Assembly (NCBI RefSeq): GCF_014349105.1
Contig: NZ_JACSJI010000016.1
Location: 1 to 64,000, forward strand
DNA: 64,000 nt
DNA from: Caulobacter sp. 17J80-11
GTDB lineage: Bacteria; Pseudomonadota; Alphaproteobacteria; Caulobacterales; Caulobacteraceae
Direction: 5' to 3'
Of the stretch, positions 43,112 through 54,010 are shown in pieces. The number at the start of each line of letters is the position of its first letter. The first letter of the stretch is position 1. A program made the position numbers and the translations under genes. Below the pieces are notes generated by a model. The model had not been told where the DNA came from. It saw only the letters and a program-made list of their open reading frames with translations, and searched no databases.

Positions 43112-44983
43112 TCAGGCGACCGCGCGATCCGCCGGTTCCGCTTCCGCGGCGGAGAGGACCTCGGACAGGGCGCCCAGCAGGCGGGCCGGATCCAGCGGCT
43201 TGGACACGAAGTAGGTCATGCCCGCGGCCATGCAGGCGGCGACGTCGTCGTCGCCGGTGTCGGCGGTCACCGCGATCACCGGGGTGTGCTGGTTGGGGCC
43301 GGCGGCGGCGCGCAGGCGGCGCGTGGTCTCTCTGCCGTCCATCTCCGGCATGCGCACGTCCATGAAGATGACGTCGAAGGCCTCGGCCCCGGCCATCTCC
43401 AGGGCCATGCGGCCGTGCGAGGCGGTGGCGATGTCGGCGCCCAGCGGCTGCAGCACCAGCTGCACGGCGCGGCGGTTGATCTCATGGTCGTCGACGATCA
43501 GCACGCGCAGCGGACGCTCGTCGCCTTCGTCGGCGGCTTCCGGCCCGGCGGGTTCGGCGGCGACCGTCGGCGCCGGCTCGACCGCGGGCGCGACCGGCTC
43601 GGGCGCGGGCGCGAAGCCGCGGGCCTGGAAGACGAACGGCTCGGTCTGAGCCGGGTTGTCAGCGGCCGCCACGGCCAGAGGCAGGGTCAGGGCCAGGGTG
43701 AAGACCGAGCCCTGGTCCTTTACGCTGAAGGCGACCAGATGACCGCCCATCAGACGGGCCAGCTGGCGGCTGATGGCCAGGCCCAGGCCCGTGCCGCCGT
43801 GACGGCGCGCGGCGTCGGCGTCGAGCTGTTCGAACGGGGTGAACAGGCGGCCCAGCTGCTCGGCGTCCATGCCCGTGCCGGTGTCGGCCACCTGGAAGCG
43901 CAGGGCCACGGCGCCGTCCTCCGCCGGCCAGGCCGACAGGCGCAGGGTGACAGAGCCCTGCTTGGTGAACTTCACCGCGTTCGAGATCAGGTTGTTGAGG
44001 ATCTGGCGCAGGCGGGTCGGGTCGCCCTCGACGAAGTTCGGCAGGCCGGCCGAGCCTTCGACACGCAGGCGCAGGCCCTGCTTGCGGGCTTCCGCGCCCC
44101 AGAAGCGGGCGGTCTGGGCCAGCACGCCGCGCAAGTCGAAGGCGACGTTCTCGACCGACATGCGGCCGGCTTCCAGCTTGGAGTGGTCCAGCAGGTCGTC
44201 CAGCAGCGCCTTCATCATGCGTGCGGCGTCGGAGATCAGGGCGGCGTTTGAGCGGGCGCCGGAATCGCGGGCGGTGCGCTCCAGTTCGGCGGCGCCGGCC
44301 AGCATGCCGCTGATCGGGGTGCGCAGCTCGTGGCTGACGGTGGCGACAAAGGCGGTGCGGGCGGCGTTGGCGGCTTCGGCCTCGGCGCGCTTGCGCTCGC
44401 TCTCGGCCCGGGCGGCGGCTTCAGAGGCGCGCGTCCCGTCCAGCGCCTTCCACAGGAAGGCCGAGTTGCCGAAGAAGATCACCGCGCCCATGACGATGGC
44501 GGTGTCGTAGGCGCCGCTGCCGCCGAAATAGCGGACGAACAGCGGCGTGGTGATCAGGTAGATGAAATAGGGCGCCAGCGTCACGCTGATGGCCAGGCGC
44601 GAGGTGGGCGTGTTGACCACGCCGTTGATCACTGCGGCCGACAGCACGAAGGCGGCGCAGACCCCGCCCAGCGGCCCGCCGAGGATCCACAGCGGCACCG
44701 ACAGGGCGCCGAAGATCGCCCCGCTGGCGAACAGGCAGGCCGAGCCCAGGGCGGCGCGCCAGACGGGGAGGCGCGCGGTTTCCGGGGGCAGGGGGCCGAA
44801 GGCGGCGACTTCGGCCAGCTGGGTCGCCCCGTAGGCGACCATCCAGGCCATGCTGATTTCCCAGCCCAGCAGCCGGCTCATCGCCAGGGCGGCCAGCGAC
44901 GCCAGCACGAAACGACGGGCCAGATGCGTCCGGCGCGTGCGCGCGGCCTGCACCAATCCCGTCGATTCGACCGCAGCCGTCAT
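43112..44983 (-). CDS. Hybrid sensor histidine kinase/response regulator
   Basis: A 623-residue membrane hybrid kinase. Five or six helices in residues 25-180 form a MASE-like integral membrane input without a large periplasmic loop. A short coiled coil (residues 185-212) leads to the H-box TVSHELRTPISGML with His218, then HATPase with LNNLISNAVKFT, VADTGTGM and GGTGLGLAI. A Pro/Ala linker (450-485) joins a C-terminal receiver with phospho-Asp542 (IFMDVRMPEMDG) and Lys595. GGAAGGA precedes ATG 44983. No output domain follows, so phosphotransfer to another protein is expected. Confidence 0.9.
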   Translation of the reverse strand: MTAAVESTGLVQAARTRRTHLARRFVLASLAALAMSRLLGWEISMAWMVAYGATQLAEVAAFGPLPPETARLPVWRAALGSACLFASGAIFGALSVPLWILGGPLGGVCAAFVLSAAVINGVVNTPTSRLAISVTLAPYFIYLITTPLFVRYFGGSGAYDTAIVMGAVIFFGNSAFLWKALDGTRASEAAARAESERKRAEAEAANAARTAFVATVSHELRTPISGMLAGAAELERTARDSGARSNAALISDAARMMKALLDDLLDHSKLEAGRMSVENVAFDLRGVLAQTARFWGAEARKQGLRLRVEGSAGLPNFVEGDPTRLRQILNNLISNAVKFTKQGSVTLRLSAWPAEDGAVALRFQVADTGTGMDAEQLGRLFTPFEQLDADAARRHGGTGLGLAISRQLARLMGGHLVAFSVKDQGSVFTLALTLPLAVAAADNPAQTEPFVFQARGFAPAPEPVAPAVEPAPTVAAEPAGPEAADEGDERPLRVLIVDDHEINRRAVQLVLQPLGADIATASHGRMALEMAGAEAFDVIFMDVRMPEMDGRETTRRLRAAAGPNQHTPVIAVTADTGDDDVAACMAAGMTYFVSKPLDPARLLGALSEVLSAAEAEPADRAVA

Positions 44984-45105
44984 GCCGGATCCTTCCGCCC
45001 CGAAGCCGATACCGCCGTTAGGTGAGCGCATTCGGTAGCGATCGAGCCTAGACGAACGAGACTAACGGGGCGTGAAGGAAAACCGGATTTCGAGGTTAAG
45101 GCGGC

Positions 45106-50375: not shown

Positions 50376-52064
50376 ATGCAACACGGTCTCTCTTCGATCG
50401 CCCGCGACGGCCGGGCCTGGCCCTTCGAGCAAGCGCGCAACCTGCTGGCGCGGCTCCTGAAAACGCGTCTGAACGACGACGCGGAACGCGACCTGGCGGC
50501 CAGCCTGCTGCAGAAAGGCAAGGCGGACGAGGCGGTGACCACCTTCCCGGCGCTGGGGCGGGCGGTGATCTTCGAGACCGGCTACGGCCCCTCGGGCCTG
50601 CCGCACATCGGCACCTTCGGCGAAGTGGCGCGCACCTCCATGGTGCGCGCGGCTTTCCGCGCGCTCACCGACGACCACCTGCCGACCCGGCTGGTCTGCT
50701 TCTCGGACGACATGGACGGCCTGCGCAAGGTGCCGGACAACGTGCCGAACAAGGAGATGCTGGCCGAGGACCTGGGCAAGCCGCTGACCGTGGTGCGCGA
50801 CCCGTTCGGCGAGCACGACAGCTTCGGCCGCCACAACAACGCGCGCCTGCGCGCCTTCCTGGACTCGTTCGGCTTCGACTACGAGTTCCTGTCGGCCACC
50901 GACTGCTACCGCTCGGGCCGCTTCGACGAGACCCTGCTGAAGGCGCTGGCGCGCTTCGACGAAATCCAGGCGGTGATGCTGCCGACCCTGGGGCCGGACC
51001 GGCGCGCCACCTACTCGCCCTTCCTTCCCGTGAGCCCGACCACCGGCCGGGTGCTGCAGGTCCCCACCCTGGAGCGCAACGTCGAGCGCGGCACCATCGT
51101 GTTCGAGGACGAGAACGGCCAGCGGGTCGAACAGTCGGTCACCGGCGGCCTGGTGAAGATGCAGTGGAAGCCCGACTGGGCCATGCGCTGGGTCGCGCTG
51201 GGCGTCGACTACGAGATGGCCGGCAAGGACCTGATCGACTCGGTCAAGGTGTCGTCGCGCATCGCCCGCATCCTGGGCGGCGAGCCGCCGGAGGGCTTCA
51301 ACTACGAGCTCTTCCTGGACGAGAACGGCGAGAAGATCTCCAAGTCCAAGGGCAACGGCCTGACCATGGAGGACTGGCTGCGGTACGGCGCGCCGGAGAG
51401 CCTCGCCTACTACATGTTCCAGTCCCCCAAGTCGGCCAAGAAGCTGCACTTCGACGTGGTGCCGAAGGCGACCGACGAGTACCTGCAGCAGCTGGACGCC
51501 TACAACCGCACGGTTACCGAGGGCGCGAACGCCACGCCGATCGAGAACCCGGTCTGGCACGTCCACAACGGCCAGCCGCCGAAGAAGGGCCCACCGGTCA
51601 CCTTCGGCCTGATGCTGAACCTGGTCTCGGCCGCCAACGCCGCCGACAAGGCGACCCTGTGGGGCTTCCTGTCGCGCTACGCGCCGGACGCGACGCCGCA
51701 GAGCGAGCCGCTGCTCGACCGCTTGGCCGGCTACGCGCTGAATTATTACGAGGACTTCGTCCGCCCGGCCAAGCAGTTCCGCCTGCCCGACCCCAGGGAG
51801 AAGGCCGCGCTGGAGGACCTGGCCACGCGCCTGAAGGCCCTGCCGGCCGACTGCAAGGACGGCGAGCTGATCCAGAACGAGGTCTATGCGGTCGGCAAGG
51901 ACCACGGCTTCGAGCCGCTGCGGGCCTGGTTCGGGGCGCTCTACGAGGTGCTGCTGGGCCAGACCCAGGGGCCGCGCTTCGGCTCGTTCGCGGCGATCTT
52001 CGGCCTGGACCGGACGGTCGCCCTGATCGAGCAGGGCGCGCGCGGCGAGTTGGTGGCCGGCTGA
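50376..52064 (+). CDS. lysK: Lysyl-tRNA synthetase, class I
   Basis: A 562-residue class I LysRS, the archaeal/alphaproteobacterial type and unrelated to the common class II LysS. The HIGH signature is [14 protein letters not shown] near residue 70, the KMSKS loop is [12 protein letters not shown] near residue 320, and [11 protein letters not shown] and [11 protein letters not shown] are typical. The C-terminal helical domain (about 390-562) recognises the anticodon. No class II lysS is in the window. ATG 50376 fits the family start. A 10-bp hairpin follows the stop. Confidence 0.94.
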
Positions 52065-52097: not shown

Positions 52098-52532
52098 TTA
52101 CTTCTGGGTGAACCCCAGGGCCTCCCGCTCACGCCACACACGCCAGGTGCCGACCGCCAGAGCGCCGAGGGCGCCGTAGCTGGAGATCGCCAGGGCGGCG
52201 ATGTAAGCGCGGGTTCCGATCGAGAGGTCGAGCAGGAAGGCGATGTGAATGACGACCGCGATCGACTGGAACGCGGCGGCGAATATCGGCCAGCTGCGCT
52301 GCGACTTCCAGGCGATCCCGACGAACACGGCGAGCACGCTCGTGTCGATCGCCAGCCAAAGGTGCTCAGGCGTAAAACTCGCCGTGTCGTCCTGTGCGAA
52401 GACGGTGGCGAGCCAACTGATCAGGCAAACGACCGCGGCGGTCTGCTCGGGCCGGTCCCCCTTCAACAGGGCGAGGCCGCACGTGAGCAAAAGGGCGACC
52501 GCCCAGATCTGCGAGTAGATCGAGTCGAACAA
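52098..52532 (-). CDS. Small multi-pass membrane protein, unknown function
   Basis: A roughly 144-residue protein with about five hydrophobic segments (IWAVALLLTCGLALLKG, TAAVVCLISWLATVF, LWLAIDTSVLAVFVGIAW, IFAAAFQSIAVVIHIAFLL, IAALAISSYGALGALAV). No family is recognised. The start is doubtful: TTG 52532 or TTG 52538 are the only usable codons before the first helix, and both lie in the T-rich tail of an upstream terminator; ATGs further upstream fall in the hairpin itself. Confidence 0.6.
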   Translation of the reverse strand: MFDSIYSQIWAVALLLTCGLALLKGDRPEQTAAVVCLISWLATVFAQDDTASFTPEHLWLAIDTSVLAVFVGIAWKSQRSWPIFAAAFQSIAVVIHIAFLLDLSIGTRAYIAALAISSYGALGALAVGTWRVWREREALGFTQK

Positions 52533-52565
52533 AACCAAACGCCCCCGAGGCTGACCTCGGGGGCG
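52528..52565 (-). terminator. Intrinsic terminator after the CtrA-boxed small gene
   Basis: CGCCCCCGAGG (52540-52550) and CCTCGGGGGCG (52555-52565) make an 11-bp GC-rich stem with loop CTGA. On the minus strand it is followed by TTTGGTTTTGTT. It is 47 bases after the stop at 52612 and so ends that transcript. The start of the next minus-strand gene overlaps its T-rich tail. Confidence 0.85.
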
Positions 52566-52611
52566 AAAGTGGCAGACTCGCATCCTTGGCCGCAAGCGGC
52601 CCCGGATTAAT

Positions 52612-52953
52612 TTACTGAGAGGCCGCGACGCGGAGAGCCGGGCGAACGCCCGATTCTTGATCCGGCTTCTGGCCTTGGCCGAACTCGTTGTCGCCCATGC
52701 CCATCTTGCTCTGCAGGTTCGCCAGGGCGCCGTGCGCGGCCATGACCGAACGGCGCGCTTCCGACAGGGCGGAGATCGCCTCGGCGACGCGGCTGGTGGC
52801 GACTTCGCCGGCGACGGCCGACAGGTTCAGCTCGCGGCGGGCTTCAACCATCGATTCAAGGAAGCGCGACGCGCTGACCATGGCTTCATCGACGGCGTGC
52901 TCGGTGGCGAACAGCTTGTCGGCGACGTTCTTGGCGACTTCGATCTTGTGCAT
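52612..52953 (-). CDS. Small helical protein with CtrA-type box upstream
   Basis: A 113-residue, almost wholly helical protein: KIEVAKNVADKLFATEHAVDEAM, RFLESMVEARRELNLSAVAGEVA, RVAEAISALSEARRSVMAAHGALANLQSKMG, then an unstructured tail. I recognise it only as a conserved Caulobacterales-type small protein; function unknown. ATG 52953 is chosen because the conserved MHKIEVAK start is there. A TTAA-N7-TTAA box at 52980-52994 lies 27 bases upstream, so cell-cycle regulation is likely. Its transcript ends at a strong terminator. Confidence 0.8.
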   Translation of the reverse strand: MHKIEVAKNVADKLFATEHAVDEAMVSASRFLESMVEARRELNLSAVAGEVATSRVAEAISALSEARRSVMAAHGALANLQSKMGMGDNEFGQGQKPDQESGVRPALRVAASQ

Positions 52954-52979
52954 TTGTGACCCGCCCACTGAATAGGAAG

Positions 52980-52994
52980 TTAACAAGGTCTTAA
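52980..52994. promoter_or_regulatory. CtrA-type binding site (TTAA-N7-TTAA)
   Basis: TTAA (52980-52983), seven bases, TTAA (52991-52994), exactly the CtrA consensus of Caulobacter and relatives. It lies 27 bases upstream of the ATG of the small helical gene, where the -35/-10 region should be. Further TTAAC half-sites follow at about 53008 and 53032. The intergenic region between 52954 and 53111 holds no other gene. Confidence 0.75.
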
Positions 52995-53111
52995 CACCCT
53001 TCCGTCGTTAACGGTAGAGCTTAGGGACTTGTTAACCACGATTTCGCGGGCAAGCGGAGGCGTTCGTCAAGCGTAGCCGCTGACGAACACTCGCCCGGAA
53101 GGCGAGAAACG

Positions 53112-53534
53112 TTAATTTTCCTCGATTTGCGACAGCAGGAAGTGGGCGTGCAGGGACGCGATCGGGGCGGCGCGGGTCTCCTGCCAGGCCTCGACGTGGA
53201 CGTTGGCGATTCGCCGGCCCGCCTTCTTGATCTGGGCGCGGGCGTAGGTGGTCAGCGGCCGGCCCGAGCGCAGGTACTGCACCGTCACGCCGATCGGCCG
53301 GGGCAGGCGCGGGCGGCGCTCGACGATGGCCAGCTGGGCCATCGCGGTCAGCTCCATGAAGGCGCCGGTGACGCCGCCGTGCAGGGCCGGCAGCAGCGGG
53401 TTGCCGATCAGGTGCTCGGCGAAGGGCATGATCGCCGTCATCTCGTCGCCGGCCAGCTCGGCGCGCAGGCCGAGGAACCGCGCGTAGGGGATGCGGCCGA
53501 GAATCGCTTCGAGGGTTTCCGCCGCTTCGTTCAC
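53112..53534 (-). CDS. PaaI-type thioesterase (hotdog fold), copy 1
   Basis: A 140-residue single hotdog-domain protein. The opening RIPYARFLGLRAELAGDEMTAIMPF, GNPLLPALHGGVTGAFMELTA with the HGG active-site helix, and GVTVQYLRSGRPLTTYARAQI are typical of PaaI/YbgC-like thioesterases that hydrolyse acyl- or aryl-CoA. It starts with GTG 53534 within the stop of the upstream thioesterase gene (GTGA), behind GGAGG. Confidence 0.87.
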   Translation of the reverse strand: MNEAAETLEAILGRIPYARFLGLRAELAGDEMTAIMPFAEHLIGNPLLPALHGGVTGAFMELTAMAQLAIVERRPRLPRPIGVTVQYLRSGRPLTTYARAQIKKAGRRIANVHVEAWQETRAAPIASLHAHFLLSQIEEN

Positions 53535-54010
53535 GCGCCCGCCTCCGTGGAAGAGGGCCGCAGATTCGCGCCCGGCTTCCGGCCGGCGTCGGAGTCCAGC
53601 ATGAAGGCCGACTGGGCGGCCGCCACCGGGTCCTCCGGATCCTCGTCGTAGGCCCAGGCCCGCACGAAGGCGACCGAGCGGGTGAGCTTGTAGCAGCGCG
53701 CCTGGGCCATCAGGGCCAGGCCCGGCTTGGCCGGGCGCATGTAGTCGATGCGCAGGTCGAGCGTGGCGATCGAGGTGAACCGGTTCATCGCCGCCCACAC
53801 CGCCATGCCGCAGGCGTGGTCGAGCACGGCCGTCACCACGCCGCCGGCCAGCACCTTGGTGTCGGGATCGCCCACCAAGTCTTCGCGGTAGGGCGCCCTC
53901 AGGGTGACCAAGTCGCCCTCCACCGAAACCAGGGACAGGCCCAGCGCGTGGGTGTGCGGGCTGCTGCTGACGAGGCGGTCGAGCAGGTCGGCGATGGGAG
54001 GCTGGCTCAT
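53531..54010 (-). CDS. PaaI-type thioesterase (hotdog fold), copy 2
   Basis: A 159-residue hotdog-fold thioesterase. GLSLVSVEGDLVTLRAPYREDLVGDPDTKVLAGGVVTAVLDHACGMAV carries the usual active-site helix, with Asp in place of a general base His region (GGVVTAVLDHA), and LDLRIDYMRPAKPG the second conserved strand. It ends in a 25-residue polar tail. It overlaps the thioesterase at 53112 (GTGA) and starts inside the stop of the DUF2306 gene (ATGA). Confidence 0.87.
   Translation of the reverse strand: MSQPPIADLLDRLVSSSPHTHALGLSLVSVEGDLVTLRAPYREDLVGDPDTKVLAGGVVTAVLDHACGMAVWAAMNRFTSIATLDLRIDYMRPAKPGLALMAQARCYKLTRSVAFVRAWAYDEDPEDPVAAAQSAFMLDSDAGRKPGANLRPSSTEAGA

Follow-up and report, generated by a model that had tools for sequence, protein, structure and literature searches.

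A candidate CtrA-controlled hmrB-hmrC gene pair without an adjacent hmrA in Caulobacter sp. 17J80-11

The closest described system is that of Caulobacter crescentus, where the CC_3218 cluster was named hmrA, hmrB and hmrC in mBio in 2024 (PMC11481889). The hmr genes favour motility over holdfast in this species: hmr deletions lead to more biofilm and holdfast and to poorer swimming, the hmrA, hmrB and hmrC deletions share phenotypes, and the double mutants resemble the single ones (PMC11481889). HmrB is there a helical hairpin of 108 aa, described as a putative atypical phosphotransferase and published with a dimer model, and HmrC has five transmembrane helices (PMC11481889). The H50A and H74A versions of HmrB each failed to complement, and the model exposes both histidines (PMC11481889). 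CC_3218 (hmrB) and CC_3219 are listed as direct CtrA targets with cell-cycle regulation, and carbon starvation raises them 2.1-fold and 2.5-fold, respectively (PMC3073932, Table 2 for the targets). Furthermore, CCNA_03325 belongs to a small group of genes that depend on GcrA and are also bound by it (PMC3667746), and hmrABCX is among the regulators missing from genomes without flagellar and holdfast genes (PMC12700997).

Here we compare with this system a locus from the window, i.e. the whole stretch of 64,000 nucleotides that was analysed (contig NZ_JACSJI010000016.1). Its features are the following.

52612..52953, minus strand: hmrB-like gene, ATG start, 113 aa, stop included (translation, family alignment, AF2 helical hairpin)
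52980-52994: perfect CtrA-type box TTAA-N7-TTAA, TTAACAAGGTCTTAA, in minus-strand reading TTAAGACCTTGTTAA, conserved upstream in relatives
53021..53035, minus strand: second CtrA-type box with one mismatch, TTAACAAGTCCCTAA; locus L009 keeps the same layout
53008..53011, minus strand: single TTAA half-site between both boxes
52540..52565, minus strand: 11-bp hairpin CGCCCCCGAGG-TCAG-CCTCGGGGGCG between hmrB and hmrC
52098..52532, minus strand: hmrC-like gene, 144 aa, TTG start most likely
53112..54010, minus strand: two hotdog thioesterase (PaaI-like) genes, Pfam 4HBT in both, as upstream context
50394..52064, plus strand: class I lysyl-tRNA synthetase gene (NF001968, 851 bits), as convergent context

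The first-pass annotation had drawn attention to a perfect box upstream of a small helical protein. Indeed, all 8 specified bases of TTAA-N7-TTAA are matched (8/8), and the 113-residue helical protein runs from the ATG at 52953 to the stop at 52612, with AF2 helices at 3-41 and 50-83. The extra TTAA half-sites announced nearby are also there, at 53035, 53011 and 53115 on the minus strand, the last within the end of the upstream gene; no GANTC occurs in the 158 bp between that gene and the hmrB ATG. The box was correctly placed, but its distance has to be corrected from 27 bases: the minus-strand order is box, 26 bases, ATG, 113 codons and stop. Two other elements of that annotation do not hold. 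The protein was given an unknown role, whereas the HmrB family received a phenotype and a name in 2024 (PMC11481889); and it went unnoticed that the gene is half of a two-gene module, the conserved membrane-protein gene directly downstream having been overlooked. Of the proposed uncharacterised cell-cycle-controlled protein, we therefore keep the CtrA control, in line with the conservation of the box and the label of CC_3218 in PMC3073932, and drop the word uncharacterised.

The 113-aa protein very probably belongs to the HmrB family. Matches to profile A1 and a joint tree indicate that it is homologous to the Caulobacteraceae family that occurs at hmrA loci. In one group of these genomes a hybrid histidine kinase, which we take to be the counterpart of CC_3219, is encoded divergently from the pair, and genes that are presumably serC and serA lie nearby. 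Gene order, sizes, helix content and residue numbers, together with the HmrA and HmrC companions, are the basis for calling the protein HmrB, C. crescentus CC_3218 being compared through its published description rather than its sequence. With C. crescentus HmrB/HmrC (CC_3218/CC_3217; CCNA_03325/CCNA_03324), also from the Caulobacteraceae, the window pair shares a helical hairpin bearing H74 (108 aa there, 113 here), a five-helix membrane protein encoded next to it and a CtrA-linked promoter. It differs in lying between the PaaI-like genes and the class I lysyl-tRNA synthetase gene, in having no adjacent hmrA and no full-length HmrA sensor match in the genome, and in carrying E50 in place of H50.

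How widespread is this family? A single-query search matched 24 of 60 genomes, its own included, all within the window genome's own family, and a 30-row profile matched 351 of 390 genomes of the same family. A class-wide draw of 289 genomes gave 6 matches, three from that family (window genome included) and three from one other. The sets of 85 and 150 proteins used below are a convenience sample of profile matches from related genomes, and non-redundant counts refer to a 75% identity cut. The AF2 single-chain model is a hairpin with a loose tail (mean pLDDT 87.7). Pfam (0 families at E<=1) and NCBIfam returned nothing for the window HmrB, PHROGs gave six family members only matches at E>=0.02, and one query (L016) found no homologue in phages or plasmids. 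A PDB profile search gave 9 matches at E<=10, the best at 0.11 (dTor_6x35L), and Foldseek, with both HmrB and HmrC, returned nothing at E<=0.001, only generic helical bundles. An apparent second copy in the same genome (E 9e-5) was rejected, as it falls in a 521-aa ORF of L002 that we read as a signal-recognition-particle GTPase. Tandem hmrB copies before one hmrC were seen in L027/L144, L028, L085/L120, L183-L188, L190, L192 and L193; in L120 and L144 they are followed by an XRE/S24 gene, presumably LexA-like.

The association with hmrC is a constant feature of the family. In 41 wide loci, whose genes were called by a crude script of our own, the family gene is usually followed by a small membrane protein on the same strand. 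With a partner profile, hmrC was found at most 900 nt downstream in 84 of 85 members (in 3 of them beyond a second, tandem hmrB), the sole exception having only 129 nt of sequence remaining. In the enlarged set it follows the 3′ side of hmrB in 147 of the 147 members with room for it, a count in which the HmrC profile was itself built from 33 of these loci and a single hmrC was counted for both copies of a tandem. Among 65 proteins new in the later-fetched regions, 64 have hmrC and one lies at a contig end. In the window, hmrC is directly downstream of hmrB (52098-52532); alternative starts are TTG at 52538, ATG at 52583 and TTG at 52595, and a TTG stands at the matching place in the hmrC of L009 and L010. 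Folded from 52538 (146 aa), the protein gave five helices in AF2 (pLDDT 93). Pfam and NCBIfam hold nothing for it; of four more HmrC proteins compared with Pfam, three gave nothing and one gave DUF4131 (0.021) and Bax1-I (0.58), both below cut-off.

The kinase is less constant. No divergent hmrA hybrid kinase stands beside the pair in the window. A profile of the HmrA sensor (A3), made from nine hmrA loci, was run against 24 chosen genomes. Fifteen of them, five of which had contributed to the profile, gave a match spanning positions 1-229 (1-228 in one case); these 15 matches have E values of 9.9e-54 or better, and each lies within about 0.4 kb of hmrB. At a threshold of 0.001 all 24 genomes show some match. 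For five of the remaining nine the values were 8.6e-27, 1.7e-20, 1.9e-17, 2.5e-12 and 1.3e-9, the matches being partial or lying in ORFs of a different size, and the last four, the window genome included, reached only 7e-7 to 1.2e-5. The best sensor match of the window genome (1.2e-5) covers profile positions 149-219 only. With the whole of HmrA as query, this genome has 25 matches at 1e-20, the best at 45% over residues 161-613, and none of them covers the sensor; the genus mate G001 has one match over 69-620, at 41%. Since hmrC is linked in all members with room for it and the HmrA sensor in only 15 of 24 genomes, HmrBC rather than HmrA is the conserved unit; and since HmrBC exists in genomes without HmrA, HmrA cannot be its general partner.

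Several hybrid kinases were noticed in the course of this search. One, a 649-aa open frame at 43115-45061 on the minus strand, lies 8 kb from hmrB, beyond the context scanned for kinases around the pair, and matches HmrA over the kinase and receiver only. In G003, G007 and G117 a hybrid kinase of 540-608 aa is encoded near the pair, and we asked whether it could stand in for HmrA. It was rejected as an HmrA, its matches (36-38%) covering kinase and receiver only; its likely counterpart in the window genome is on another contig. Orthologous kinases of this size, 57-74% mutually identical, lie 1-3 kb upstream of hmrB in L120, L124 and L144.

That hmrB-hmrC is under CtrA control in this organism is a prediction in which we place considerable confidence. 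The regulator is present, as ctrA was found in the same genome (L004:1686-2375, NF045991, 418.9 bits against a cut-off of 350), with a perfect TTAA-N7-TTAA of its own at L004:1501-1515, 170 nt upstream. Could the box at hmrB nevertheless be due to chance, or serve something else in this genome? The window contains one perfect match and 100 dinucleotide shuffles of it none; the whole 3.8-Mb genome contains 6, against 4 for a reversed control pattern, so that the perfect pattern by itself is hardly above chance genome-wide, and the main support for the box is its conservation in the sequences compared. Within 200 bp upstream, a box with at most one mismatch is present in 50 of 85 unique family members (12 perfect), in 99 of 149 members of the enlarged set (17 perfect) and in 42 of 81 non-redundant ones (<75% identity; 9 perfect), compared to 9 of 232 other genes in the 41 wide loci (1 perfect). 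Genomes in which the search did not detect the HmrA sensor keep the box as well, and we consider a fortuitous box very improbable. The boxes are mostly confined to one side of the family tree (49/52 members vs 1/33), in a midpoint-rooted tree with many long branches flagged and weak support (37) for the split itself; inside the boxed side, a group of 45 with hmrA-linked genes has support 98, and the window HmrB groups with L009 (92) and L012 (89).

The second issue is what HmrB does. All 150 of the 150 proteins carry H74 and E18, with no further invariant position between 3 and 89, whereas position 50 is His in only 3 of 150. This points to H74 as the site that matters for function; the failure of H50A in C. 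crescentus would then have a different origin. As judged from the helix limits of the model, H74 and E18 would face each other across the hairpin. Phosphotransfer through H74 is putative, and we give it slightly less than an even chance. Like ChpT and Spo0B, which are dimeric hairpin phosphotransferases, HmrB could dimerise into a His-bearing four-helix bundle; it lacks their C-terminal ATPase-like domain, and phosphotransfer by HmrB is putative only. By analogy, the position of the residue would count against this role, as H74 is on helix 2 while the phosphorylated His33 of ChpT is on helix 1 (PMC3433190). With the canonical monomeric HPt domain HmrB shares a small, all-helical build and a candidate His, but it has no HxxKG (the window reads H74-GALA), no Pfam HPt match and two helices in the model. 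Moreover, phosphotransfer by H74 only leaves the non-complementation by H50A unexplained (PMC11481889). HmrB could instead be a soluble regulatory subunit of HmrC. In that case E18-H74 would be a polar pair within the hairpin, with a structural role or one in sensing metal or pH, and HmrA would be one client of several. The linkage to hmrC in 147/147 members, against 15/24 genomes for the HmrA sensor, fits this, as does the lack of kinase enrichment near the other copies: among 31 HmrBC loci without HmrA, a kinase resembling those collected here lies in the 12-15-kb context of 6. A helical wheel places H74 close to the hydrophobic side when the whole helix is considered (22 degrees), which also fits this reading, but not when the direction is taken locally (74 degrees). 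However, the shared phenotypes of the three C. crescentus deletions, with doubles equal to singles, and the exposure of both histidines in the authors' model (PMC11481889) argue against a mere subunit of HmrC, and we hold this possibility to be unlikely.

The third issue is the hairpin preceding hmrC. Its 11-bp stem ends 7 nt ahead of the likely TTG start, the junction folds at -52.4 kcal/mol (z -5.6), and the G-run of its 3′ arm is likely the hmrC ribosome-binding site. Of the non-redundant boxed members, 23/28 have a stem of at least 10 bp in the 50 nt that precede the start codon; the same holds for 5/27 others and 17/524 control genes (in the enlarged non-redundant set, for 35/42 boxed members and 9/31 others). 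Mean pairing of the ribosome-binding stretch exceeds 0.8 in 75% of 48 boxed members (36/48); for 33 others the share is 33%, and for 524 controls it is 8%. The window's own value, 0.73-0.76, is under that line. An action of the hairpin on hmrC translation is a tentative prediction, at somewhat less than even odds. The hairpin could instead be only an intrinsic terminator or attenuator, or a DNA operator, with no translational role, for which the chances are little short of even. Indeed, the window hairpin is followed by TTTGGTTTTG, and was called terminator-like; 15 of the 28 stems of at least 11 bp carry a T-rich tail (>=5 T in the 8 bases after the stem), which weakens the translational reading; a T-tailed hairpin lies far upstream of hmrC in L016, L049 and L079; and UzcR is reported to act at the C. 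crescentus hmrC promoter (PMC11481889), the accessible text of PMC12864828 giving no motif letters for it. Yet such a tail is absent from the other 13 stems, the 3′ arm contains a purine 4-mer resembling a ribosome-binding site in 27 of the 28, and in 34 of 35 boxed cases 0-8 nt separate the end of the stem from the start codon. In addition, stem sequences vary between genera while pairing is kept, with at least 4 pair types at each of 11 positions; this loop-anchored count favours pairing, which was the criterion for choosing the stems, and the enrichment counts are the less biased measure. MAFFT opened gaps when aligning the hairpins, so that structure pairs counted on its alignment were unusable, and Rfam gave 3 matches on 52400-53200 (best E 0.16), all far under gathering scores. 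The hairpin may thus limit translation, end transcription, or both.

As a whole, the explanation that we favour, with somewhat better than even confidence, is a CtrA-controlled hmrB-hmrC unit with an H74 relay and an inter-gene hairpin. CtrA~P would bind the box or boxes just upstream and time hmrB-hmrC to the CtrA-high part of the cell cycle. The HmrB hairpin would probably dimerise into a four-helix bundle and act as an atypical histidine phosphotransfer or relay protein via His74, apposed to Glu18, and HmrC, encoded in the same gene pair, would be its five-helix membrane partner. The hairpin would set the amount of HmrC by covering the ribosome-binding site, by ending transcription, or both, and the output, by homology, would be the balance of motile versus holdfast-bearing cells. 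As the unit would run without HmrA in this organism, it would have to be fed by another hybrid kinase or by HmrC itself. In a bolder extension, quite unlikely in our estimation, HmrB-HmrC would be ancestral as a signalling unit and HmrA would have been recruited later, when CtrA timing was already in place; the His74-Glu18 dyad on opposite helices would be the active centre, and the RNA hairpin over the hmrC ribosome-binding site would set the dosage of the membrane sensor family-wide, perhaps by temperature or metal.

What appears new from these sequence comparisons is HmrBC as a conserved unit, the boxes on one side of the tree, the H74/E18 invariance and the hairpin before hmrC. The literature covered contains one paper on the system, PMC11481889, and a few others in which it is cited or listed. 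The accessible text of PMC11481889 mentions neither paralogous pairs nor a variant without HmrA, nor the invariance or the hairpin, and the word paralog is absent from its main text; most subscription literature was outside the search. As H50A and H74A both failed to complement (PMC11481889) and only H74 is conserved, H74, with E18, should be the functional pair, and this open point of the 2024 paper becomes directly testable. The genomes carrying HmrBC without HmrA are natural experiments, and in the hairpin the proposed HmrC sensor has a control point that can be tested.

Other elements were noticed around these genes. In many loci (L046, L043, L020 and relatives) the hairpin is preceded by a TTGC(A/G)ATAG(T/A)TTAA stretch. 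This stretch is still close to hmrC in L049 and L064, whose hmrC has no hairpin next to it, and it is possibly a separate hmrC promoter. Another perfect TTAA-N7-TTAA of the window genome, at L006:1501-1515, lies about 145 nt upstream of an ORF whose N-terminus resembles PodJ, in a region with no NCBIfam match at 1e-5. Finally, another small conserved gene (cluster 4) precedes ten hmrBC copies without CtrA box (L106, L112, L115, L118, L122, L126, L128, L133, L136 and L138). An XRE-type regulator is encoded close to several of these copies, which together with the preceding gene possibly form a three-gene module.
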